This document shows positions 1-11,009 of a DNA stretch of 64,000 nt, one piece after another. The DNA is taken from contig NZ_CP035914.1 of NCBI RefSeq assembly GCF_004209775.1, positions 682,001-746,000 of the forward strand. The letters are read 5' to 3'. The notes under the pieces are model-generated. The model was not told where the DNA came from. It saw nothing but the letters and a program-made list of their open reading frames with translations, and made no database searches. The first letter of the stretch is position 1; each line of letters begins with the position of its first letter. Source of the stretch: Synechococcus sp. WH 8101 (GTDB taxonomy: Bacteria; Cyanobacteriota; Cyanobacteriia; PCC-6307; Cyanobiaceae). Position numbers and translations under genes: made by a program.

Positions 1-1167
1 GTCCCCGCCCTTGTGGAACGCGCCCGCTGGCTGCACACCCGGTCTGTTCCCTTGATCCTGTTGGCGGGGGGTGGTCTGCTCGCCACCGGCAATTCCGGTG
101 GGGCGGCCGGCCTGTTGCAGTTCGATCCCGCCAGCGACTGGCAGTTGAGCTGTTCGCTGCTCTACGGCGCCGTGCAGCGAGATGCCCTCAACCTCGGCGT
201 GGTGCTCAAGCGTCCGGAGGTGAGTGATGGGATCGCCCACAGCCGTCAGCTGCTGATCACCGAAGCGGTGCTGGAGCGGCTCGGCCAGCGATCTCTCGCC
301 GGCATTCACCCGCTCGACGACACCACGGTGGAGGAGTTGGCCCAGATCGTGGCCGGCTTCCGATGCCGCCAGCGCCCATTCGGGCTCACGGCGTTCCTGC
401 CCCTGCTGCATGCGCTGGATCTGGACCCGTACATCGTTGATGACCTGGAGCCGATGCATCCCTTCGGCTGGCGGGGCATCATTCGCGGTGAACGGGTGGA
501 ATTGGGCGGTCCCCGGCTGCTGCAGTCCCGGCATCTCCGCCACGATCCTTCCTTCGGACGCCATGCCGACCAGACCTGGATCTATGTGCTCCGCAGCGGC
601 CGGCTGATCGGTGCGATCGATCTCCGGGTGCACCTCTCCAGGCGTTTGATCCGTTCCCTCAAGCGGATTCAGCGGATGGGGATCGGGATCCGCTTGCTGA
701 TGGCGTCAGATCTGCAGCTGGCGGATCTGCTCTGTCAGCGCCTCGATCTGCCCGCTGAGGCCGTTGTCGTGGCACCGGAACCGGAGCGTCAACTCGCCCA
801 AGTGAACCGCTGCCGCAAGGCTGGGCCGGTGATGCTGCTTGGCGGTGCCGATGCTGATACGCCCCTGATCGCTGCCGCCGATGTGGGCATCACGATGGTG
901 GAGTCCCAGCCTCAGGTGAGTCAGTCGGTTGCCGATGTGATGATCGCCGCCCGATGCATCGACCGGCTGCCCGCTGCGATTGTGCTTTGTCGTCGCTCCC
1001 ATGGCGATCAGGCCGGTCAGGCAGCTCTGGTGCTGCTGCCCCATCTGTTGGTGGTGCTGGTGAATCTGGTGCTACCGATTCACCCCCTGCTCGCGGTGTT
1101 CCTGGTCGACATGCCGATCCTCACCAGCGAGCTGCTGCTGGTGAGGGCCGGACGTCAGCGTCGCTGA
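1..1167 (+). CDS. Partial P-type ATPase-like protein lacking catalytic motifs (C-terminal part)
   Basis: The reading frame is open at base 1, so the gene is cut by the window edge; 388 codons are seen. It aligns by eye with the C-terminal half of the intact ATPase at 5490-8012: a membrane segment with FD near codon 41, an N-domain-like GWRG..RGE stretch, a P-domain and a final hydrophobic pair. The catalytic residues are gone. Where the intact protein has VVFDKTG this one has QLLITEAV, with Thr in place of the phosphorylated Asp. TGD is replaced by ASD and GDGIND by GGADADT. There are no internal stops, so it looks maintained rather than decayed. The stop lies one base from the stop of the convergent DUF5132-like gene. 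I infer a pseudoenzyme partner or scaffold. Family placement is fairly secure; function is unknown. Confidence 0.7.
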   Translation, partial: VPALVERARWLHTRSVPLILLAGGGLLATGNSGGAAGLLQFDPASDWQLSCSLLYGAVQRDALNLGVVLKRPEVSDGIAHSRQLLITEAVLERLGQRSLAGIHPLDDTTVEELAQIVAGFRCRQRPFGLTAFLPLLHALDLDPYIVDDLEPMHPFGWRGIIRGERVELGGPRLLQSRHLRHDPSFGRHADQTWIYVLRSGRLIGAIDLRVHLSRRLIRSLKRIQRMGIGIRLLMASDLQLADLLCQRLDLPAEAVVVAPEPERQLAQVNRCRKAGPVMLLGGADADTPLIAAADVGITMVESQPQVSQSVADVMIAARCIDRLPAAIVLCRRSHGDQAGQAALVLLPHLLVVLVNLVLPIHPLLAVFLVDMPILTSELLLVRAGRQRR

Positions 1168-1168
1168 G

Positions 1169-1483
1169 TCAGGAGCGGCTGCTGCTGATCGAGGTGGTGC
1201 GCTTGGCCTTGCTCTGCTCCAGGTCGGCTTTGGCTTCCGCCAGCAGATCGGTGAAGCTCTCACCCACTTCCGAGAAGCCCTGGCCGATCCCCCGCAGCAG
1301 GCCACCCGTGCTGTCGGCGAGGCGGATGCCCAGCTTGAGCCCCTGCTTGGTGATGGCGCGGCCGGTGTCGCCGATGGAGCGGCTGACGCGGTTCTCGCCG
1401 CCACCCACAGCCTTGACGGCGGGGGCGATGGCCACGAGGGCAGCACCGAGGCCCATGGCGATCAAGAGTTCTAGTTCAAACAT
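1169..1483 (-). CDS. Small DUF5132-like membrane protein, paralogue A
   Basis: This 104-residue protein starts MFELELLIAMGLGAALVAIAP, a short hydrophobic N-terminus, followed by an amphipathic region (RSIGDTGRAITKQGLKLG) and a charged, helical C-terminus (FTDLLAEAKADLEQSKAK). It is clearly paralogous to the protein at 8009-8347: same length class, same MFELE start, same Gly/Ala-rich segment, same acidic tail. I place both in or near the DUF5132 family from memory. The gene is convergent with the ATPase-like gene ending at 1167. It probably sits in the membrane beside a P-type ATPase, but no activity can be assigned. Confidence 0.65.
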   Translation of the reverse strand: MFELELLIAMGLGAALVAIAPAVKAVGGGENRVSRSIGDTGRAITKQGLKLGIRLADSTGGLLRGIGQGFSEVGESFTDLLAEAKADLEQSKAKRTTSISSSRS

Positions 1484-1570
1484 CGCGGGTCAGAAAACAA
1501 CCATCACACCCTGATTGCAGCATGAAAGGGGCACGTCGTCGCGTGTTCCGGGCATAGCCGCAGCTGTTTG

Positions 1571-2164
1571 TCAGCTGGCGCTGACCGGGCCAAGCCACTC
1601 AATATCGCCTTTCTCCAGGGTGTAGCAGGCGGCTTCGATCCGCAGGGTTCCCTCCGCCACCCTGGAGCGCATCAGCTCACTGCCCTGGAGCAGACGCCGG
1701 GCCGCCACCCGGCTGTTGGCCCGGAAGGCCCGATCCAGCTCCGAGCCCACGCCTTCCTCATCGAGGCCGCTGCGGATGTTGAGCACCAGGTCCTGCAGGG
1801 CCGGGGTCATCGCTTCTTGGGGGGTGCAGGCCGCGGTCACCGCGCCGCAGCCTTCATGGCCCATCACCACGATCAGCTGCAGGTTGAGCCCCAGCACGCC
1901 GTAATCCAGGGAGCCGATCGTGTCGGTGAAGCTTGTGTTTCCTGCCGTGCGCACCACATACAGGTCGCCGAAGCCGGCGTCGAAGAGCAGCTCCACCGGC
2001 ACGCGCGAATCGGAACAGCTCACCACCGCCGCCAGCGGATGCTGGCCCTCCACCAGCTGGTGGAGCCGATAGGCAGAGGAGTGGGGGTGACGGGATTCCC
2101 CCGCCATGAAGCGGGCATGGCCCTCCTGAAGCATCTCCAGGAGTTTCTGGGGGTCATGGTGCAT
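1571..2164 (-). CDS. Beta-class carbonic anhydrase
   Basis: This predicted 197-residue enzyme interconverts CO2 and bicarbonate. The zinc-site motifs of beta carbonic anhydrases are present: CSDSRV near residue 50 (zinc Cys and the Asp-Arg pair) and GHEGCGAV about 60 residues later (zinc His and Cys). Length is normal for the family. I chose the ATG giving MHHDPQKLL; the frame stays open 15 codons further upstream, but those residues are not family-like. No signal peptide is seen, so the protein is probably cytoplasmic. It lies between a DUF5132-like gene and the HTH gene at 2288, inside the P-type ATPase block and away from any carboxysome genes in view. Confidence 0.93.
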   Translation of the reverse strand: MHHDPQKLLEMLQEGHARFMAGESRHPHSSAYRLHQLVEGQHPLAAVVSCSDSRVPVELLFDAGFGDLYVVRTAGNTSFTDTIGSLDYGVLGLNLQLIVVMGHEGCGAVTAACTPQEAMTPALQDLVLNIRSGLDEEGVGSELDRAFRANSRVAARRLLQGSELMRSRVAEGTLRIEAACYTLEKGDIEWLGPVSAS

Positions 2165-2287
2165 TGCTGGCCGAGGGGAATCACGCGCGTTGGCCGCAGG
2201 GTGGCACAACAGACCCGATTCTGTTGTTGTCTGTTTCGGCCATTGGCTCGATCATGGCGGCCAAAGACCTGCTGGCCGGTGTCCCCC

Positions 2288-2809
2288 ATGAGCGAAGAAC
2301 TGGTGCCTCTCGCCAAACTGGAGACCGATCTGGGTCTGTCGCGGGCCGATGTGCTGCTCCTGCTGCATCGCCTCAAGCTTGAGCCGGTGCGTCGTGGCCT
2401 GCGCACCTATGTTCAGGCCGCTGATGTGGCTCAGCTGCTGGCCGCTGCGGGGGCTGGTGATGCGGAACCGGTGGCGGCCGAGCTGGTGCTTGACCCCGTC
2501 GGTGTGGAGGCGTCCTTGCCCGTGCCAACCGGAGATCGCGACTGGAGAAAGGCGGAGCTCTACGCCGATCTGAGGCTCTTCCGCGAGCGGCTCGACATCC
2601 TTGAGCAACTGGTGCGCACCGGCATTGAGGTGGAGAGTGGTGAACTCGCCGACCTGTTGCAGCTCAAGCGGCTGCCCTCGGTGGAGTCCCTGCCGGAAGG
2701 ACCTGGTTTCATCCGCCGTGGTCTGCGCTGCCAGAGGATGCAGCGTCCAGGTCAGCGGGCGTCCTGGCGCTTGTTTCGCGATGGCAGCGGGTGGCCGGAT
2801 GCGGCATAA
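2288..2809 (+). CDS. Small HTH protein, possible regulator of the ATPase block
   Basis: From the ATG at 2288 this gives 173 residues. Residues 5-50 (LAKLETDLGLSRADVLLLLHRL then a basic RRGLRTYV and a second helix) read like a MerR- or excisionase-type winged HTH. Residues 95-125 are helical and charged (WRKAELYADLRLFRERLDILEQL), a possible dimerisation helix. The frame continues upstream, but that part is antisense to the carbonic anhydrase and is rejected. The gene is divergent from the carbonic anhydrase with a gap of about 120 bases, and its last 58 bases overlap tail-to-tail with the ATPase-like gene ending at 2752. Regulation of the neighbouring operon is inference. The family is not identified. 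Confidence 0.7.
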   Translation: MSEELVPLAKLETDLGLSRADVLLLLHRLKLEPVRRGLRTYVQAADVAQLLAAAGAGDAEPVAAELVLDPVGVEASLPVPTGDRDWRKAELYADLRLFRERLDILEQLVRTGIEVESGELADLLQLKRLPSVESLPEGPGFIRRGLRCQRMQRPGQRASWRLFRDGSGWPDAA

Positions 2810-4914
2810 CCCGCCGTCTGCACGCTCAGAATGTTGTTGAGCTCCGCCAGCAACATCGGCAGGTCGTAGAAGAGGATCGCTTGCATCGGAGCGATCCAGC
2901 CGGTGGCGGTGATCAAGGCGGTGGCGATCTGGGAGCCAGTGATCAGGCTGAAGTTCCCGGTTTCCGCCTGTTGCAGTCGCCGGCTCATGGTCACCAGGCG
3001 CGGCAGCCAGGAGGCATTGGTGGGGATCATCAGGTCGCAGAGCCGCGCCACCATGAGGCTGTCGTCGGGGGTGGTCATGCCCATCGACACGTCGGCCTGC
3101 TCCAAAGCGGCCAGATCCTGGAGCAGGTAGCCCATGTAGGCGACCCCGTCTCGGCCGTTGCCCTGTAAGCGACGAATCAGGGCGAGGCGTGCTTCGGCAT
3201 CGCAAGCACCATGCCGCTGGTCATCGGGGAGCTGCAGCGCTTCAGTACAGGTTTCCAGCTGGTCATCGGGAAGCGACGACACCACATGCAGGCGGATGCC
3301 GAGCCGGTTGAGCATCTCTGCAGCCTCCAGCCAGTGGTCATCCGGCAGGAACTCCAGCACAATCCGCCCGATGGAGGCACCATTACGGCTCACCCGCAGG
3401 GATGTCAGCAGATCGTCGGGCCGTTCCGCTTCGATCACCACGCTGTCGCCGGCACGGGTGCGCAACCTGTAACGACTCCCTTCCGCCTCGATCGCCACGG
3501 AGGTGATCGCCGTTGGCGTTTCGATCTCCTGCAGCTGCCGGGTCCAGATCGCCATGCCATTGATTCCGCTCAACCAGCTTTGAATGCCGGCGAGCAGGCG
3601 GAGCAGCTCTCCTTTGATCGGGTTGGTGCCCGGGGCCGCTTCTTCCTTCAGTCGCATGCCGCCGGCCTGATTCAGGCAGCTCTGGGTCACCACCAGATGG
3701 CGGATGCGTCCCAGGCTGCTGAGCACATTCGGGTTGCGGATCCGCACCTTGTGCAGGGCCAGATCGGCCACGGCGGTGAGCCTGGAGGCGGTGACGCTGT
3801 CGCTCCAGTTGTGCAGCGGGCTGAAACGGAGCGCCGCCAGGGCAATCTCCCCCGATCCCCGCGCCAGCATCACGCCGCCACCGGCCAGCAGCAGCGGACT
3901 CATCCAGTCGGAGAGTCGCTGCAGGCGCCGATCGAGCACACCGGTTTCGATCCGGCTGCGGTCGTGCTGTTCGTGCAGCAGGGCGTAGGTGGGATCGCTG
4001 ATCAGCGCTTCGCTCAGTTCGAGAGTTCCCTGGCCGCGGATCACCAGAGAACCGGTGGGAATCACCTCGCCCCGCTTCAGCCAGCGCGGATGCCAGTGGC
4101 CGTTGATGCGGCGATTGCTCACCAGCAGACGGCCCGACACCAGCGTCGAGCGCAAGGGGCAGAGCTGCTGGCCATGAATCAGGTAGTGCTGGCCCGGTTT
4201 GGCCTCGGCCAGGGGGATCGGATCGGCCGCACTGTCTGGCGGTTGCAGTTGCACCACCCGGCCGAGACGAGCCAGCAGGCGGTCGCCATCCACAACGTCT
4301 TCATCCGGTTGCATCACCCCCTGGACGGCACCGGTGGCATCGTGAATGCCCAGGTCGGTGAGGGTTTCGCGGGGCAGACCCTCCAGCAGCATGGCGGTGG
4401 AAAAGCCCAGCTCCAAGGTCTCCACATCGAGCCGGCCCTGCCGCAGTTGCCGCAGGGCGGCGTTAATCCTGGGCCAGAGCAGCAGGGAGGAGAGACCCAG
4501 CAGCAGGGTGAGCGGCAGGGGGGTGATGGCATCGATCAGGAGGATCGAGGCGCAGGAGAGACCATGGCGGATCAGGGGCCGTCCGGGTGCGAACAGCGAC
4601 TGTTCCGGATCGGCGAGGTCGAGGCCGCTTCCAGGGAGCGGGGGCGTCAGTGCTCGCTCCAAGAGCGTTTTCAGGTCGCGCCGATGCTGCGGTGGGTAGT
4701 GGAGGCAGATGCTTCCCGCCAGGGGATTGATCCGGAAACCGCGCAACCAGTGACAGCTGCTCAGGGTGAGCCGGCAGTGGTGCAGCAGGGTGGAGTCGAG
4801 CCGGTTGCTCGCCGGTTCCCCGACGGGGTTCAGGCCATGACATCGCACCCGCAGCCGCCCGGGCAGGTCGCTGACCTGGGTCCAGTGCCGGGAGTGGGCA
4901 AGGTCGGCAACCAC
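2752..4914 (-). CDS. Full-length P-type ATPase-like pseudoenzyme (720 aa)
   Basis: The architecture matches a P1B ATPase: N-terminal HMA-like fold (residues 15-90), membrane pair (115-150), A-domain region, second membrane pair (335-365), P/N-like region and a C-terminal pair (655-695). The catalytic residues are replaced. TGES becomes INGHWHPR (270-277), DKTGT becomes VVTQSCL with Thr410 at the Asp position, and GDGIND becomes MGYLLQD (594-600). No frameshift or stop occurs in 720 codons. It is the last gene of a tight minus-strand set after the intact ATPase and the 182-residue protein, with a 30-base gap and a GTG start. I infer a non-hydrolysing partner of the intact ATPase. Substrate is unknown. 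Confidence 0.8.
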   Translation of the reverse strand: MVADLAHSRHWTQVSDLPGRLRVRCHGLNPVGEPASNRLDSTLLHHCRLTLSSCHWLRGFRINPLAGSICLHYPPQHRRDLKTLLERALTPPLPGSGLDLADPEQSLFAPGRPLIRHGLSCASILLIDAITPLPLTLLLGLSSLLLWPRINAALRQLRQGRLDVETLELGFSTAMLLEGLPRETLTDLGIHDATGAVQGVMQPDEDVVDGDRLLARLGRVVQLQPPDSAADPIPLAEAKPGQHYLIHGQQLCPLRSTLVSGRLLVSNRRINGHWHPRWLKRGEVIPTGSLVIRGQGTLELSEALISDPTYALLHEQHDRSRIETGVLDRRLQRLSDWMSPLLLAGGGVMLARGSGEIALAALRFSPLHNWSDSVTASRLTAVADLALHKVRIRNPNVLSSLGRIRHLVVTQSCLNQAGGMRLKEEAAPGTNPIKGELLRLLAGIQSWLSGINGMAIWTRQLQEIETPTAITSVAIEAEGSRYRLRTRAGDSVVIEAERPDDLLTSLRVSRNGASIGRIVLEFLPDDHWLEAAEMLNRLGIRLHVVSSLPDDQLETCTEALQLPDDQRHGACDAEARLALIRRLQGNGRDGVAYMGYLLQDLAALEQADVSMGMTTPDDSLMVARLCDLMIPTNASWLPRLVTMSRRLQQAETGNFSLITGSQIATALITATGWIAPMQAILFYDLPMLLAELNNILSVQTAGYAASGHPLPSRNKRQDAR

Positions 4915-4944
4915 AGCTGAGGAGAGTGCACGTTTGGAGGCGCT

Positions 4945-5493
4945 TCAGTGCGCTGAAGCGATGAAGGGGCGCCGCAACAGAAAGGCCAGTTCGATCAACC
5001 AGGCCGCGAGCAGCAGCAGCAGGGCGCCGGGAGAGAGGGGGAGCAGCAAGCCGGGGACCCCGATCAGGATCAGGCTGAAGGCTGTGAGGGTGAGAAGCAA
5101 ACTGAGGGAGACGGTCATCAGGTTGGTCAGGCCACCCAGCAAGGCCACAAGCCATCGCCAACGACGCTCAGGCCTCTGGCGCAGCGGCGTGGCGATGTTG
5201 CGTAGGGGAATCGTGATCACCTCCGGTGCCGGCGCTGCGGCGCCGATCTCCTCCAGCGCGGCCACCAGAGCCACGGCCGCCGGTTGCCAGTCTTGATCAT
5301 TGCTGGCACTGATCCCGGAGATCACTACCGATTGGGCAAGTGGATTGAGCCGAAACCGGAAGGGTGTTCCCGTGAGCCTGACCCGCAGGGTGTCGGCGAG
5401 GGCCGACCAATCGATCGGCTCCTCAAACCGGAGGGAGTAGCGCCGACGCCCCCGGCCGCGATGACGAAGCCTGAGGCAGTCGGCAGCACTCAT
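4945..5493 (-). CDS. HMA-like domain plus two membrane helices
   Basis: This 182-residue protein has an N-terminal alpha/beta domain (residues 1-95) resembling the HMA_2-type fold that also begins the ATPases here. It has the basic RHRGRGRRRYSLRF start and strands around VVISGIS, but no CxxC metal motif. Residues 118-175 form a hydrophobic hairpin (LTNLMTVSLSLLL, then LIGVPGLLLPLSPGALLLLL). Its ATG overlaps the stop of the intact ATPase (ATGA), so the two are probably translationally coupled. The pseudo-ATPase follows 30 bases downstream. A membrane subunit or adaptor of the ATPase is the simplest reading, but this is inference. Confidence 0.65.
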   Translation of the reverse strand: MSAADCLRLRHRGRGRRRYSLRFEEPIDWSALADTLRVRLTGTPFRFRLNPLAQSVVISGISASNDQDWQPAAVALVAALEEIGAAAPAPEVITIPLRNIATPLRQRPERRWRWLVALLGGLTNLMTVSLSLLLTLTAFSLILIGVPGLLLPLSPGALLLLLAAWLIELAFLLRRPFIASAH

Positions 5494-8012
5494 GCGGCAG
5501 CCAACGCCTCGGGCACATACACCTTGCGGCGCTCGCAGTAGCTCCAGCTGTGGCCATCGGGATCGTTCTCCCGGCTCCAGCGGTGCAGTTCACCCTTGCG
5601 ACGCAGAGAACTCAGCTGTTGATGGCTGGTGCCAAGCCGCTTGGCCAGTTCCCTGGCGCGCAGGGGCTGGATCGCCGTTTCGGAGTCGGCGACCTCCGTT
5701 GTGGTGCTGGCGTCGCTGCGGCCAGGGCGAGCCTTTCGCACGCCGCCGGCCTCCAGTTCGGGTAGGGGTTCCGGGCGGAACTGCAGCGTGCGCATGGCAT
5801 TGCCCGCTGCCACCAGGGAGGAGCCGTTGTTGATCAAAACGGCGGCCACCGGTCCGAGGGGGAAGAAGGTGCCGATTACCAGGGCGGTGAGGTTGGGCAC
5901 TCCCACGATGCCGATGTTCTGGTTGATCAGGCGGAAGGTGCGGCGGGATAGGTCCTGGGCGGCGATCAACCCCGACACCTTGTCGTTGGTGAGCACGATG
6001 TCGGCGGTTTCACGGGCCAGATCACTGCCGGATGCGAACGACACCGACACATCGGCGTAGGCCAGGGCGGCGGAATCGTTGATGCCGTCACCCACAAACA
6101 CCACCCGACGTCCCTGCTCCTTGAAGCTCTTCACCAGCTCGGCCTTCTGGTCGGGCAGCGCTTCGGCGTGCACCTCTTCGGGATACAGGCCAAGGCGTTC
6201 GGCTACGGCATGGGCCACGGTTGCCACATCGCCCGTCAGCATGTGGGCTTCGATGCCGCGACGATGCAGCTCCTGCACCAGGGCCTTGCTGTCGGGCCGC
6301 AGCTCATCAGCGGCGTGGAACACGGCCGCCATGGCGCCATCCACAGCGAGATACACAGGGGTGGAAGCGTTCAGCTCGGAGCGCTCAGGCAGCTTCGGCT
6401 CGCTCAGGCCTTCCTCATGCAGCAGGCGAGCGTTGCCGATCAGCACCTGATGTCCGTCGATCACGGCGGCAACACCACGGCCGATGCGGTAATCCCAGGC
6501 GTCCGGGCTGACACCCGCCACGTCTTCGGCTGCAGCGAACTGAATGATCGATTCGGCGATCGGGTGGTTGAGACCCTGCTCGGCGCTGGCGGCGAGGCGA
6601 ATCAGTTGTTCCCGGGAGTAGGCATTGTTGAGCACATCCAGGTGAACCACCGAGGGGTGACCCTGGGTGAGGGTGCCGGTCTTGTCGAAGACCACCACAT
6701 CCACATCATTGAGCAGCTCGAGGGCGCGGCCGCTGCGGATCAAGAGGCCCTGACTGCCGGCTCGGGTGAGGGCCGCCATGATCGCGGTGGGCACCGACAC
6801 CCGCAGGCCGGTGCCGAGGTCGAACATCAACAGAGAGGCCGCCTGGGCCAGGTTGCCGGCACTCAGTAGTAGGGACACACCGGCGAGAGCCAGGGTTGGC
6901 AAGACGAACCGGTTGGCAATCCGCGCTGCCACATTGCCCACTCGCGTGTCGAACACCGGAGCGGAATCGATCATCGCCGTGATCTGGCCGATCCGGGTCT
7001 GCTCACCCACGGCGGTGGCGCGCATGATCAGGGTGCCTTCGAGAAGAATGAATCCAGCCAGCACCTCATCGCCGGCTTCGGCATGGCGTGGCACGGATTC
7101 ACCGGTGAGCTTCACCACATCGAAGCTCACTTCTCCCTTCTCCACCTCTCCATCCACAGGAATGCTATCGCCGGGATAGAAGATCAGACGGTCGCCAGCG
7201 ACGACTTCCGTACTGGGAATCACCTCTTCTTGACCCGCATCATCGAGCCGGCGCACATCGGCCTGCAGGCTGGCAAGCAGATCGGTGCTGGCGGAATGGG
7301 CAATGCGCTGAGTCGCGTCGCGAACGGCTTCGCCGCCCTCGATCATGCTGATCATCAGCGCTGGACCCGTCAGGAAGCCCTCCAGGCTGTGGATCGTCAC
7401 CGCCAGGGCATCGAGAGCATCCACATTGATGCGGCGCTCTTGGCGCAGGCCGTCCCAGGCTCGCTTGAAGCTGAGGCGTGCGGCCACCAGGATGAAGGCG
7501 GCCACCGCCAGGGGAGGCAGCGAGAGCGGACCCGCCAACAGGGCCAAGGCCAGTGAGCTCACCGGCAGCACAATCCGGGAGGGAACAAACGGTTCCTCTT
7601 CATCACCCCCAGCGTTTTGCTCCGCCGGGCTCGCCGGCGTGGCATCAATCGCCACTTCGTCGAGACGATGATCACCGCTGCGGGGCAGCTGCTCGAGCCA
7701 GGCTTGAAGCTGCTGCTCATCCCAGCTCTTGGCCGTTGGGGCCAGTTGCAGCACAAGACAACCTCCGATGCGGTTGTGGCGAACGCTGCTGATCTCAGCC
7801 TGAGACTCGATCCATCGGGCCAGGCGCTGGCTCTCAGAATCGGTGCTGGGCAGGCGCAGACGTAGGCGCGCGCCGCAGCGGTGCACGATCTGGATGTCGC
7901 TGGGATGCCAGGGGGTCAAGGCCCTGGCACTGGGAACGGCCTTGAGGCCGGATCGATGTCCGTTCGGTGACGGGCTATCGACTGCAATGGAAACTGCCAC
8001 TGATGCCGTCAC
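5490..8012 (-). CDS. P1B-like P-type ATPase without CPx motif, with C-terminal HTH-like domain
   Basis: This 840-residue protein is a catalytically intact P-type ATPase: TGES at 303-306, DKTGTLTQ at 443-450 (phospho-Asp 443), HP at 483-484 as in heavy-metal ATPases, TGD at 593-595 and GDGIND at 641-646. Residues 38-110 form an HMA-like domain without CxxC. The membrane motif that is CPC, SPC or TPC in metal pumps is here FDLGTG (397-402), so the substrate is not predictable. Residues 785-840 look like a cyanobacterial HTH domain ending in DPDGHSW, which is unusual on a transporter. It starts at GTG inside a GTGA overlap with the DUF5132-like gene and is followed by an ATGA-coupled membrane gene. 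The predicted pump and its neighbours form one operon. Confidence 0.93.
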   Translation of the reverse strand: MTASVAVSIAVDSPSPNGHRSGLKAVPSARALTPWHPSDIQIVHRCGARLRLRLPSTDSESQRLARWIESQAEISSVRHNRIGGCLVLQLAPTAKSWDEQQLQAWLEQLPRSGDHRLDEVAIDATPASPAEQNAGGDEEEPFVPSRIVLPVSSLALALLAGPLSLPPLAVAAFILVAARLSFKRAWDGLRQERRINVDALDALAVTIHSLEGFLTGPALMISMIEGGEAVRDATQRIAHSASTDLLASLQADVRRLDDAGQEEVIPSTEVVAGDRLIFYPGDSIPVDGEVEKGEVSFDVVKLTGESVPRHAEAGDEVLAGFILLEGTLIMRATAVGEQTRIGQITAMIDSAPVFDTRVGNVAARIANRFVLPTLALAGVSLLLSAGNLAQAASLLMFDLGTGLRVSVPTAIMAALTRAGSQGLLIRSGRALELLNDVDVVVFDKTGTLTQGHPSVVHLDVLNNAYSREQLIRLAASAEQGLNHPIAESIIQFAAAEDVAGVSPDAWDYRIGRGVAAVIDGHQVLIGNARLLHEEGLSEPKLPERSELNASTPVYLAVDGAMAAVFHAADELRPDSKALVQELHRRGIEAHMLTGDVATVAHAVAERLGLYPEEVHAEALPDQKAELVKSFKEQGRRVVFVGDGINDSAALAYADVSVSFASGSDLARETADIVLTNDKVSGLIAAQDLSRRTFRLINQNIGIVGVPNLTALVIGTFFPLGPVAAVLINNGSSLVAAGNAMRTLQFRPEPLPELEAGGVRKARPGRSDASTTTEVADSETAIQPLRARELAKRLGTSHQQLSSLRRKGELHRWSRENDPDGHSWSYCERRKVYVPEALAAA

Positions 8013-8347
8013 TCCACCGTTACTTCGGTGGTCGCAGTCGAGGCTTTGCTGGCCTTGGCCGGAGTGGCAGCACTGTCGTCGCTGCTCTGCATTTCATGGC
8101 GGGCTTCCGCCACCAGATCGCCGATCGATTCGGCCGCTTCAGCGGCCCCCTTGGCCACGCCTCGGGCCGCTGCACCAGCCGCACCGGCCACGGTGACGCC
8201 CAGCTTGATGCCGCTCTTGGCCATGGAGCGACCGGTGTTGTTCATGGAATCGCCGAGCTGGGGATTGCCAAAGCGTTTGACCATCGGCGCCAGGGCCACC
8301 AGGCCCGCTCCTACGCCAAACGCCAGAACTGTTTCCAGTTCAAACAT
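8009..8347 (-). CDS. Small DUF5132-like membrane protein, paralogue B
   Basis: I chose the ATG giving MFELETVLAFGVGAGLVALAP (112 residues), because it matches the start of the paralogue at 1169-1483; the frame stays open 34 codons upstream. A hydrophobic N-terminal segment is followed by KSGIKLGVTVAGAAGAAARGVAKGAAEA and an acidic helical tail (ESIGDLVAEARHEMQ). It is the first gene of the minus-strand ATPase operon, and its stop overlaps the GTG start of the ATPase. The repeated pairing of this family with ATPase-like genes in the window suggests it belongs to the same membrane complex, possibly as a small subunit. Function is unknown. Confidence 0.72.
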   Translation of the reverse strand: MFELETVLAFGVGAGLVALAPMVKRFGNPQLGDSMNNTGRSMAKSGIKLGVTVAGAAGAAARGVAKGAAEAAESIGDLVAEARHEMQSSDDSAATPAKASKASTATTEVTVE

Positions 8348-8367
8348 GAATCCACCAGCCATCAACG

Positions 8368-8392
8368 CAGCGGATCTTACGCCGATCTGCTG
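8368..8392. promoter_or_regulatory. Imperfect inverted repeat, candidate operator
   Basis: CAGCGGATC (8368-8376) and GATCTGCTG (8384-8392) are complementary at 8 of 9 positions with a 7-base spacer. The site lies in the roughly 120-base gap between the divergent DUF5132-like gene (start 8347) and the ArsA-like gene (start 8466), where promoters of both must lie. It could bind the HTH protein at 2288 or the HTH tail of the ATPase. It is a single copy judged by eye, so chance is possible. Confidence 0.3.
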
Positions 8393-8465
8393 AAATGTGG
8401 CGATTCTGCGCAACCCTCTCGGGGAGTTGGTATTGGGCCACACATCCAACCGTGATCCGGCTGCG

Positions 8466-9515
8466 ATGGCTGTGGTGTTGCTGGTGGCTGATCAGCCCCA
8501 ACAGGGGCTGGATCTGGTGAATGCGCAGCAGCAGCTTGCCGCTTCGGGGCTGGTGGTGCTCGATCTCAATGGCGAGAGCAGTCACCTGCTTGAGGGGCGT
8601 GATCCCCAGGGCGGCAGCCTGCGCTGGGAGGCCTTTGTGGCCCAGGAGCACGCGGCGGCGCTCTGGCCCGACCTGGAGGGTCCCTTGCGTCCCTGGGCGG
8701 CGATGCTCGGATTGTCGATCGACTCGCCGACGCCTCCTTGGCTGGTCCCCGGATTGGAAGATCTCCAGCGTGTGCTCTGGCTGGCGGACCGTCTTGCGGC
8801 GGCGACGGCAGATCCCGAGGTTCAGATGGTCACGGTGCTGCTGCCGCCCCTGGCCCAGGCCTTGCCGCTTCTGCGGCTGGCCCAGCGGGCGCCGGAGCTG
8901 ATCCTCAGCCTCTGGGATCCCCTGCTGAATTGGTGGAGCGAGACCCGTCAGCGCCTGTCCCACCTCGAATTGGTGCTGCGTTTGCAGTTACCCAGCGCCG
9001 AATCCCTGCGTCCTCCCACTCCATGGCTGGAGCGTTGCCGGTTGCTGGCTGACCGTCTGAATGACGAGCAACGTCTCGATGTGGTGCTGGCCCTCAGCGG
9101 CGATGCCGACACCTGGCCGCTGCAGCGTCGCCGCCTGGCAGCGTTGCCCTTGAGCGGCTACCCCCTGCATCGCCTCTGGATCCAGGGGCAGGGCTGGTCA
9201 ACGCCGCTGCTGGAGGGGTGGTCGCCGCCCTTGCTGCTGGGCGACTCCTCGTGGGCGGATCGGCAGGATCCACTGGTGACCCTGCTGGCACAGCAGGCCC
9301 CGTCGATCCCTCTGACCCATTGGGAGGACCAGCTCTGCCGCGTGTTCGCCCCTGGCGTTGGCCGTGAGGATCTGCGTGTGCAGCAGCAGAAGGACGCTCT
9401 GGTGATCTCCGCTTTGGGGCAGCGGCGGATCATTCCGCTGCCGGAGGCCTGCCGTCAGCGCGAACCCGCTTCCGCCAGGGTCTCTGCACCATTCGTGGAG
9501 GTGGTGTTTCGCTGA
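8466..9515 (+). CDS. ArsA/Get3-like protein without a P-loop
   Basis: This protein of about 349 residues follows the ArsA-family outline. It starts with a beta strand MAVVLLVAD where ArsA has its deviant Walker A, then LVVLDLNGES where ArsA has the LLVSLDPAHS strand. A central VVLALSGDADTWPLQR segment resembles the ArsA PEE region. The last 55 residues (FAPGVGREDLRV...ALVISALGQRRIIPLP) resemble the HSP20-like domain that ends cyanobacterial and actinobacterial ArsA proteins. The GKGGVGKT P-loop is replaced by ADQPQQGLD, so ATP binding is unlikely. It is divergent from the ATPase operon and its end overlaps the next minus-strand gene by 61 bases. The ATG at 8466 is preferred over codons 23 upstream. 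Assignment is by pattern only. Confidence 0.55.
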   Translation: MAVVLLVADQPQQGLDLVNAQQQLAASGLVVLDLNGESSHLLEGRDPQGGSLRWEAFVAQEHAAALWPDLEGPLRPWAAMLGLSIDSPTPPWLVPGLEDLQRVLWLADRLAAATADPEVQMVTVLLPPLAQALPLLRLAQRAPELILSLWDPLLNWWSETRQRLSHLELVLRLQLPSAESLRPPTPWLERCRLLADRLNDEQRLDVVLALSGDADTWPLQRRRLAALPLSGYPLHRLWIQGQGWSTPLLEGWSPPLLLGDSSWADRQDPLVTLLAQQAPSIPLTHWEDQLCRVFAPGVGREDLRVQQQKDALVISALGQRRIIPLPEACRQREPASARVSAPFVEVVFR

Positions 9516-9976
9516 GAGGGTTGGGGCGGTCGCCAGCCCAGCCACCAGGCCATCAAAAAGAAGGGGGTGCCGGGCAGCACCGGCAGGGCCCAGCCCGCCA
9601 CCGCCAGGGCCATCAGCATCTTGATGCTGCCGAGGCGTGAGCGTTGCAGCACTCCCGGCAGACCCCGCTCTGGTGGGGCGGCAAGGTGGGCAGGCGGCAG
9701 CTGGATGGTCTGCTCCAGCAGCTGCAGGCCCTGGTGGATCGACTGCTCGGGATCGAGGCTCCAGAGCACGAGCCCGCGACCGGAGGAGGCAGGGCGCAGG
9801 GCGAACCCGGCCTGTTGCTGTTCCATCAGCCAGAGCAGGCTGCGCATGCGGTGCGAACAGAGGGGCTGCCGGAAGCGGATACGGACGCGGTGATGGAGAC
9901 GGTGCTCCACCACGTAGGCCTCTCTGGCGACGGGCGCTTCAGGGCAATGCATGGGGAGGCCCTGGTTGGCATTCAC
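9455..9976 (-). CDS. Second small HMA-like membrane protein
   Basis: This 173-residue protein has residues 24-95 resembling a ferredoxin-like HMA_2 fold (VVEHRLHHRVRIRFRQPL at the start, LVLWSLDPEQSI later), with no CxxC. A hydrophobic C-terminal hairpin follows (MLMALAVAGWALPVLPGTPFFLMAWWLGW) with an LPGTPF turn. The order matches the protein at 4945-5493. It may start at residue 1 or at the Met at residue 9. The gene converges on the ArsA-like gene with a 61-base overlap. It is probably part of the ATPase block, with no assigned function. Confidence 0.6.
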   Translation of the reverse strand: MNANQGLPMHCPEAPVAREAYVVEHRLHHRVRIRFRQPLCSHRMRSLLWLMEQQQAGFALRPASSGRGLVLWSLDPEQSIHQGLQLLEQTIQLPPAHLAAPPERGLPGVLQRSRLGSIKMLMALAVAGWALPVLPGTPFFLMAWWLGWRPPQPSQRNTTSTNGAETLAEAGSR

Positions 9977-10061
9977 TGAACATTGTTCATCAGCCTATGC
10001 CGCCTCAAGCAACCATTGCTTGACTGCAGGCCGTTCCTCCGGCTTGGTCGAATCGCAGCCC

Positions 10062-10751
10062 GTGAATTTCTCCGAAACCACGTTCCGAAATTTCCATGAT
10101 CTGGCCAGGGCGCGGCGGGCGTTGCCGATCGGGATTGTGGTGACCCTGGTGGCCCTGTTCTGGATGGGCGGACGGCCCGGTCGCCTCGATGAGGCGTTTT
10201 CCATGGGCTTCTTGATTGCGATGCTGGTGGATCTCTGGCATTTCAATCGGGCGGCTTATCGTCTCGGTGCCGAAGAAACACGCGTGTTGTTTGGCCATGA
10301 ACGGGCGCGCCGGCAGCGGCTGATCGCCCGCACCGTGGTGTTCACGTTCATGAGTATTGGTGTGCTCAGCCTGAGTATTCAGGATCTGCACCATGCCAAG
10401 GGGGCGCTGCCGGAATGGTTGCGGATTCTGGTGTATTTCGCGGCCATGTTCGCCACCTGGATGCAGTTGCACTATGGCTTTGGAATTCATTATGCCAAGG
10501 CCTATTTCCAGCTCAATCCGATCGCCCGAGGCGACGGTGTGGATCCCCAGGGCTTCATTTTTGAAGGCGATGATCCGATCTTCACCGATTTTCTTTATGT
10601 CGCTTTCGCCGTAGGGCTCACTTACGCCATGAGTGATGTGACCCTGGAAGACGCCCGGGTGAGGCGAACGGTGTGGTTCCATTCCTTGATGAGCTTCCTG
10701 TTCTATTCCACAGTGATCTCGGCTGTGCTGAATCTGTTCACCAGCGCCTGA
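10062..10751 (+). CDS. DUF1345 family membrane protein
   Basis: This protein of about 229 residues has five to six predicted membrane helices. The conserved DUF1345 stretch is visible at the end (DPIFTDFLYVAFAVGLTYAMSD, then VRRTVWFHSLMSFLFYS). The GTG at 10062 is preferred; the upstream open frame is antisense to the 9976 gene start and is not family-like. The role of DUF1345 proteins is not established. The stop abuts the stop of the convergent 85-residue gene, separated by a CCTGATCAGG palindrome. Whether it belongs with the ATPase block upstream is unclear. Confidence 0.85.
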   Translation: MNFSETTFRNFHDLARARRALPIGIVVTLVALFWMGGRPGRLDEAFSMGFLIAMLVDLWHFNRAAYRLGAEETRVLFGHERARRQRLIARTVVFTFMSIGVLSLSIQDLHHAKGALPEWLRILVYFAAMFATWMQLHYGFGIHYAKAYFQLNPIARGDGVDPQGFIFEGDDPIFTDFLYVAFAVGLTYAMSDVTLEDARVRRTVWFHSLMSFLFYSTVISAVLNLFTSA

Positions 10752-11009
10752 TCAGGAGTGGAACAGCAGCACCAGGCCGTGGCTCACCTGGTGGAACTCC
10801 CGCTCTTCACGACTGAGATCCAGACCAACTTGAAGGCCTTCTTTGAGGGCGTCGTCGAACGGTGGGGTCAGCGGTGACTGGCTTTTGTTCCAGAGAGCAG
10901 CGATGCCGACGGGGGTGGCGTGCCAACGGAAACACGTGGTCTCGCCGATGGAAGGTTCGTTGAGGGATTCTTCCAAGAGGGCGTTGATCGCCATGGTTGT
11001 GCTGGACAT
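10752..11009 (-). CDS. Conserved-looking 85 aa protein, unknown function
   Basis: The frame gives 85 residues (or 80 from the second Met, MAINALLEESLNEPSIG). The protein is soluble and acidic, with aromatic and charged patches (TCFRWHATPVGIAALWNKS, then DLSREEREFHQVSHGLVLLF). Codon use matches neighbouring genes, and the frame lies between two clear plus-strand genes with little overlap, which supports it being real. No motif is recognised. It is convergent with the DUF1345 gene and divergent from the glycosyltransferase that follows. Confidence 0.6.
   Translation of the reverse strand: MSSTTMAINALLEESLNEPSIGETTCFRWHATPVGIAALWNKSQSPLTPPFDDALKEGLQVGLDLSREEREFHQVSHGLVLLFHS

Follow-up and report, generated by a model that had tools for sequence, protein, structure and literature searches.

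The window, the whole 64,000-nucleotide stretch analysed here (G000:C1:682001-746000), belongs to the single-contig 2.63-Mb genome of Synechococcus sp. WH 8101 and opens with a block of genes centred on three P-type ATPase-like proteins, an intact pump and two pseudo-P-type ATPases (psA and psB) that lack the catalytic motifs (genomes, contigs, loci and genera are cited below by the handles G, C, L and g). The block extends from psA (708 amino acids; plus strand, 1..1167, the gene starting 959 bases outside the window at G000:C1:681041) to a DUF1345 membrane protein gene (plus strand, ~9951..10751, start codon uncertain; DUF1345 E 9.7e-29). The minus strand between them encodes psB (720 amino acids, 2752..4914), the intact P1B-type ATPase (5490..8012), two small DUF5132-like proteins, D1 (1169..1483) and D2 (8009..8347), two proteins with an HMA-like stretch, HMA1 (4945..5493) and HMA2 (9455..9976), and a beta-carbonic anhydrase (1571..2164; Pro_CA E 6.6e-31, CxDxR and HxxC by eye), while a conserved 173-amino-acid protein (2288..2809) and an ArsA-like protein (8397..9515, start codon uncertain) lie on the plus strand. 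D2, pump, HMA1 and psB form a tightly spaced run in which D2 and pump, and pump and HMA1, overlap by 4 bases and HMA1 and psB are 30 bases apart. All genes listed for the block in an initial annotation of this DNA are present; the carbonic anhydrase and DUF1345 genes had been left out.

That annotation held that only one of the three ATPase-like genes is intact, and indeed DKTGT, TGES and GDGIND are found only in the 5490..8012 gene. Family model and motifs place this pump among the P1B-type ATPases (TIGR01525, 473.5 bits against a cut-off of 346), and DKTGT, TGES and GDGxND are kept in all 19 aligned intact pumps, as is the motif (F/L)DLGTGLRVSVPT in transmembrane segment 4 (TM4). The window copy, which reads FDLGTGLRVSVPT in TM4 and NNGS in TM6, belongs to a P1B branch of TM4 type (L/F)D(L/F)GTG(I/L)R(V/I)SVPT and TM6 type (N/H)NG; its TM4 has GTG instead of CPC, no CPC-like metal motif and no Cys. 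The ratio of nonsynonymous to synonymous substitutions (dN/dS; Nei-Gojobori throughout) was 0.06-0.12 in six pump pairs. Unusually for a P-type ATPase, the C-terminal segment of the pump (window 5490-5700) matches HTH_17, though very weakly (E 0.16).

Family models and motif alignment identify psA (TIGR01525, E 1.1e-21) and psB (TIGR01512, E 2.3e-9) as P1B relatives, both far below the curated cut-offs. They had been described as full-length copies with Thr at the phosphorylated Asp; the Thr is present in both (TEAVL in psA and TQSCL in psB at the DKTGT position), and only completeness needs amending, psA being incomplete within the window. Across psA and psB sequences aligned with the pump (9 and 21, close pairs included), Ser or Thr replaces the phosphorylated Asp in 30 of 30, and the DKTGT, TGES and GDGxND of a catalytic P-type ATPase are missing from every one. 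Their TM4 carries FxP in all 30 and F(D/N)PxxDW in 9/9 psA and 11/21 psB, and TM6 of many reads D(I/L)PxLLAEL or similar; of the pump's hydrophobic stretches, the first and the last keep that character in both (crude scale). When conservation was scored without near-copies (18/21 psB, 8/9 psA and 17/19 pumps used), the three former catalytic loops of psB reached 0.45-0.61 against 0.37 for the average column, in new residues, and its HP and GxG motifs fell below that average (0.26). It is highly improbable that psA and psB remain ATPases through another chemistry: although they are full length and the P-domain region of psB is conserved, the phosphorylated Asp, TGES and GDGxND are gone in 30/30 and the HP and GxG columns of psB are among its least conserved motif windows.

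Values of dN/dS were 0.05-0.19 for psA (3 pairs) and 0.12-0.34 for psB (8 pairs), far pairs having high dS. No stop was flagged in psA matches, and the TGA flagged in two psB matches (G177, G127) is in both cases the end of the reading frame itself. The initial annotation had allowed that the dead copies might be single-genome relics or carry stops in sister strains; their recurrence, dN/dS of 0.05-0.34 and frames without internal stops speak otherwise. Relic duplicates are thus ruled out by recurrence across genomes, co-occurrence with the pump and low dN/dS, and psA and psB are kept intact by purifying selection. It is accordingly quite improbable that the block is just a heavy-metal (Cu/Zn/Co) resistance cassette whose duplicated pumps are decaying, even though the family model scores the pump among P1B heavy-metal ATPases and one second pump of another family is broken (L135/L228), since dN/dS is well below 1 in 11/11 psA and psB pairs, the frames hold no internal stop, the dead loops of psB are conserved in new residues and the pump has no CPC motif.

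The distribution of these genes was assessed in 201 genomes of the family, representing 59 genera, with cut-offs chosen after the tables were seen (pump E<=1e-130, psA E<=1e-70, psB E<=1e-50). The intact pump occurs in 19 genomes, psA in 9 and psB in 17, and the union of psA and psB carriers is the identical set of 19, spread over six genera, which agrees with the earlier expectation that the set would recur in several genomes. Ten fetched loci (L071, L077, L080, L083, L084, L086, L090, L092, L093, L094) share the order carbonic anhydrase-D1-HMA2-ArsA-D2-pump-HMA1-psB; the window genus has a rearranged form of this cassette and genus g44 (L081, L082) a reduced form with psA in the place of psB. 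A named-collection scan, in which the best 80 of 397 relatives were kept, yielded 20 cassette loci (L146-L165), several from the same genomes as the family draw. The downstream side was unreadable in five (L147, L153, L156, L162, L164), and 14 of the other 15 have a dead copy there. The exception is L151, whose pump lacks an adjacent dead copy; a full-length motif-less psB relative on another contig of that genome overturns L151 as a case of a pump without psB. Most named carriers are records of Cyanobium, Vulcanococcus, Synechococcus lacustris or another Synechococcus, and three cassette contigs titled Rhodopirellula (2) or Deltaproteobacteria (1) are probably misbinned.

The block is accessory within its genus, as neither pump nor dead copies occur in 7 of 10 same-genus genomes (the window genome counted among the ten). 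In three of these (G123, G101, G034) the genes flanking the site on the left and right (the right one being window 10752-11009) lie ~1.6, 3.2 and 2.6 kb apart, respectively, against 12.9 kb in the window, and no match to the DUF1345 gene was found between them, making that gene the right edge of the unit absent from these sister genomes. In G193 the cassette sits between the same flank genes as in the window; in two more same-genus genomes, G075 and G141, the right flank gene was not found within the 9 kb fetched.

In the main rival explanation the dead pumps are not subunits of this pump: they bind or sense ions on their own, or form passive ion pathways, in the service of several transporters. 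It would account for the rebuilt TM4 of the dead copies, for the psB paralogues of three g10 genomes that sit directly next to a Ca2+/H+-exchanger-like gene (as a tandem pair in G165), and for the psA copies that g10 and g47 carry outside the cassette, both g47 ones adjoining GDT1. We nevertheless regard it as unlikely, because among the 201 genomes the dead copies are found only in the 19 that also have the intact pump, and they adjoin HMA1 or the pump in every cassette with a readable downstream side, except L151.

The small partners of the pump are less readily assigned. Two DUF5132-like paralogues had been proposed, and this identification stands at family level: D1 and D2 individually fall below the Pfam cut-off (E 0.015 and 0.43), but 11 of 13 scanned members of their family match DUF5132 (best 2e-6). 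Alignment and crude hydropathy give a single transmembrane segment near the N-terminus, with glycines, followed by an Ala/Glu-rich tail, a PacL-like layout; a C-terminal metal-binding motif of the PacL kind is absent from the family (13-row alignment, by eye). We found no mention of DUF5132 in the open-access PubMed Central (PMC) literature. Two HMA-like membrane proteins had also been named: HMA1 and HMA2 both have a basic R..R strand, conserved in an alignment of 15 HMA1 relatives, and a C-terminal hydrophobic stretch, but Pfam returns nothing for HMA1 and a sub-threshold DUF454 match (to the tail) for HMA2, so the label rests on a motif seen by eye. In the window's own genome the only match to the HMA_2 profile is psA, weak and under cut-off (E 0.001).

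The ArsA-like protein, reported as lacking a P-loop, does retain an ArsA_HSP20 tail (E 1.3e-8) with no P-loop visible. Since an ArsA-type gene in L127 has a degenerate P-loop (GKAGTGHTT; PF02374 E 6.6e-32), the window protein may also be a dead ATPase. The supposed helix-turn-helix protein at 2288..2809 is a real conserved gene, with relatives adjoining cassettes of g1, g5, g10, g44 and g47 and none seen in g19 loci, but the helix-turn-helix label is unconfirmed because neither Pfam nor NCBIfam gives a match. Relatives of the beta-carbonic anhydrase lie near cassettes of g1, g5, g10, g19 and g47 and were not seen in the two g44 loci. Anti-phage defence was considered and rejected, five block proteins having no PADLOC match at E<=0.001.

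Neighbouring transporters were sought with seven sequence queries against all fetched cassette loci. DUF1345 genes lie near cassettes of the window genus, g5, g10, g44 and g47 and in three loci of other families (L126, L127, L130), and a further HMA-like protein near those of g10, g44 and g47. A PF00999 cation/H+ antiporter accompanies g5 and g47 (best NCBIfam match a K+/H+ antiporter, under cut-off); GDT1 is found in g5, g44, beside psA in g47, and in L135, L149, L151, L159 and L163; an MntP-type gene is found in L084, L126, L127, L129 and L130. Four loci, all of other families (L126, L129, L130 and L133, the last holding a single pump), have beside the pump a Ca2+/H+ exchanger that exceeds the TIGR00378 cut-off, with a PF01699 match for three. 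A search for cax in 12 genomes, picked partly because cax had already been seen, gave matches at E<=1e-20 in 11 (6 over cut-off; none in G112; those of G335 distant from its pumps), and the sole cax-like match (E ~1e-53, under cut-off) of the g10 genomes G064, G165 and G177 abuts a psB paralogue. At L085:6477-12233, L076:7028-10571 and L087:5964-9407, which lie outside the main cassette, psB paralogues (a tandem pair in L085) immediately adjoin a Ca2+/H+-exchanger-like gene, and ABC-transporter-like genes lie near these sites (by eye).

An oxygen-liganded ion would suit the pump because TM4 lacks Cys and TM6 has two Asn, and its neighbourhood of Ca2+/H+, Mn and cation/H+ transporters with a carbonic anhydrase would point to Ca2+ or Mn2+; on these grounds a hard divalent cation, one of these two, is the likeliest substrate. 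A link of the block to calcium-carbonate biominerals is a lead.

Relatives in other families bear on the origin of the dead copies. Among 20 such loci, picked by score, nine combine an intact-type pump with a second, drifting pump, which has GEGIND in L126-L131 and further losses in L134-L136. The phosphorylation site has changed from Asp to Ala in three cases: L134/L226 and L229 are full length, whereas L135/L228 has a broken end. The Asp-to-Ala second pump of G335 (L135:5137-8915) breaks off near its end and is followed by an unrelated open frame and then a C-terminal remnant; it is a probable relic, unlike psA and psB. psA and psB form one clade both in a FastTree phylogeny (113 sequences cut to 94) and in an LG+C20 mixture-model tree (55 hand-chosen rows). 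The latter nests them among the second pumps (100/96 for second pumps plus psA and psB), whereas FastTree places them outside all GTG pumps, a placement rejected by the approximately unbiased test (p 0.024; the group was named after the trees were seen, and long branches are present). Derivation of psA and psB from the second pump type is thus suggestive only, because the inner branch carries 2.5 changes per column.

Further arrangements were observed around related pumps. At L134:5292-6593, the active pump and its Asp-to-Ala partner have between them a 433-amino-acid protein that matches a glycine zipper (E 9e-6), and a second-type pump adjoins a bestrophin-like channel gene (PF25539 E 5e-92) at L142:6865-10063. 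In L141, L143 and L144, pump relatives with HNG in TM6, accompanied by DUF5132 or HMA_2 proteins, adjoin FeoB-like genes, with ferritin-like genes in L143 and L144 (by eye); these neighbours suggest that one branch of this pump family is concerned with iron. At L166:9528-12432, in an Actinomycetota-titled metagenome-assembled genome, a pump of the same TM4 type lies between two small proteins, one a weak DUF5132 match (E 4e-4), so the pump/DUF5132 pairing may reach beyond cyanobacteria.

From the motif loss, conservation, co-occurrence, synteny, presence or absence at one site and neighbour families observed above, we infer a physical complex, a role for the dead chain, a direction of transport and a substrate. 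We consider it somewhat better than an even bet that the block encodes a PacL-like divalent-cation (perhaps Ca2+ or Mn2+) efflux platform with a non-catalytic, pump-derived subunit. The single P1B-derived pump would hydrolyse ATP and move the ion across the membrane; psB (psA in one genus), a putative second-pump relative that could not be phosphorylated at the usual site, would bind, stabilise or gate it as a non-catalytic subunit; the DUF5132 proteins would cluster pumps, as PacL proteins do; and docking at the membrane face would fall to the HMA-like proteins. A bolder version remains tentative and on the doubtful side, namely a heteromeric P-type ATPase with one active and one obligate dead chain per unit, descended from an ancient two-pump pair and scaffolded by DUF5132 proteins; in picocyanobacteria it would link primary pumping of Ca2+/Mn2+ with Ca2+/H+ exchange and carbonic anhydrase.

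Several observations weigh against such an efflux platform. The 19 carriers are not 19 independent cases, because they are confined to six genera. Paralogues of psA and psB also lie away from the pump (L072, L073, L076, L078, L079, L085, L087) and therefore need not bind it. Conservation in psA is mixed (TGES 0.43, DKTGT 0.36, GDGxND 0.44 and HP 0.47 against an average of 0.39), with HP above and DKTGT slightly below average, unlike psB. The stretch 365-397 (TM3-TM4) is less hydrophobic in psA and psB than in the pump (~0.75-1.3 against 1.5-1.7, crude scale), so their fold may be altered. None of the 13 scanned DUF5132-like members matches DUF1490 or DUF6110 at E<=1. Neighbours differ among genera, and g19 loci had none of the extra transporters in the seven-query scan; the one cax-like gene of the window genome is far from the block.

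Kinases, phosphatases and proteases all have well-known pseudoenzymes. For bacteria, no description of a pseudo-P-type ATPase that is conserved and dedicated was found in the open PMC literature, including the accessible part of a review (PMC10654040). Should the dead chain prove to be a subunit, this would add another way of regulating P-type pumps, and the series across lineages from GEGxND through Asp-to-Ala to Ser/Thr with three motifs gone would record the passage from pump to regulator, as states and not as a time order. The block also offers a role for DUF5132 that can be put to the test, and suggests that picocyanobacteria of fresh and marine waters have a calcium or manganese system.

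Among known systems, KdpFABC is a P-type ATPase that works with non-pump subunits, and the block resembles it as a P-type pump with candidate partner subunits; none of the partners of KdpB is known to be a dead P-type ATPase. CoBaHMA proteins have an HMA fold with a conserved basic face, and CoBaHMA domains and calcyanin provide basic HMA-like domains in cyanobacteria with glycine-rich partners and a calcium link; a possible likeness to this family would lie in the conserved R..R strand of HMA1 relatives. The discussion of PMC9374683, in its accessible part, names P1B6 and P1B6-like ATPases with DUF6110, likewise a poorly characterised P1B branch with a helper gene. Its TM6 HN motif recalls the HNG of some relatives of the window pump, which itself has NNG, the comparison being by TM6 alone. 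The initial annotation knew of no described system with such a layout, yet a related one exists. The nearest is the mycobacterial effluxosome, in which PacL1/2/3 (DUF1490) accompany the P1B pumps CtpC/CtpG/CtpV, and DUF1490 and DUF6110 are the helpers named in the accessible parts of PMC9374683 and PMC13043812; the word 'cyanobacteria' is absent from the main text of both. The accessible parts of these papers mention no dead pump, CtpC has CPC in TM4 where the window pump has GTG, and the helpers there are DUF1490 proteins, whereas the D1/D2 family is DUF5132 without a DUF1490 or DUF6110 match. PacL by homology was rejected, DUF1490 having been sought in six genomes and found in none, and the likeness is one of layout only. 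What the two systems share, as far as those parts of PMC9374683 and PMC13043812 describe the effluxosome, is several pumps and helpers in one cell and a P1B pump encoded with a small, glycine-containing helper that has a single transmembrane segment, found here by crude hydropathy.

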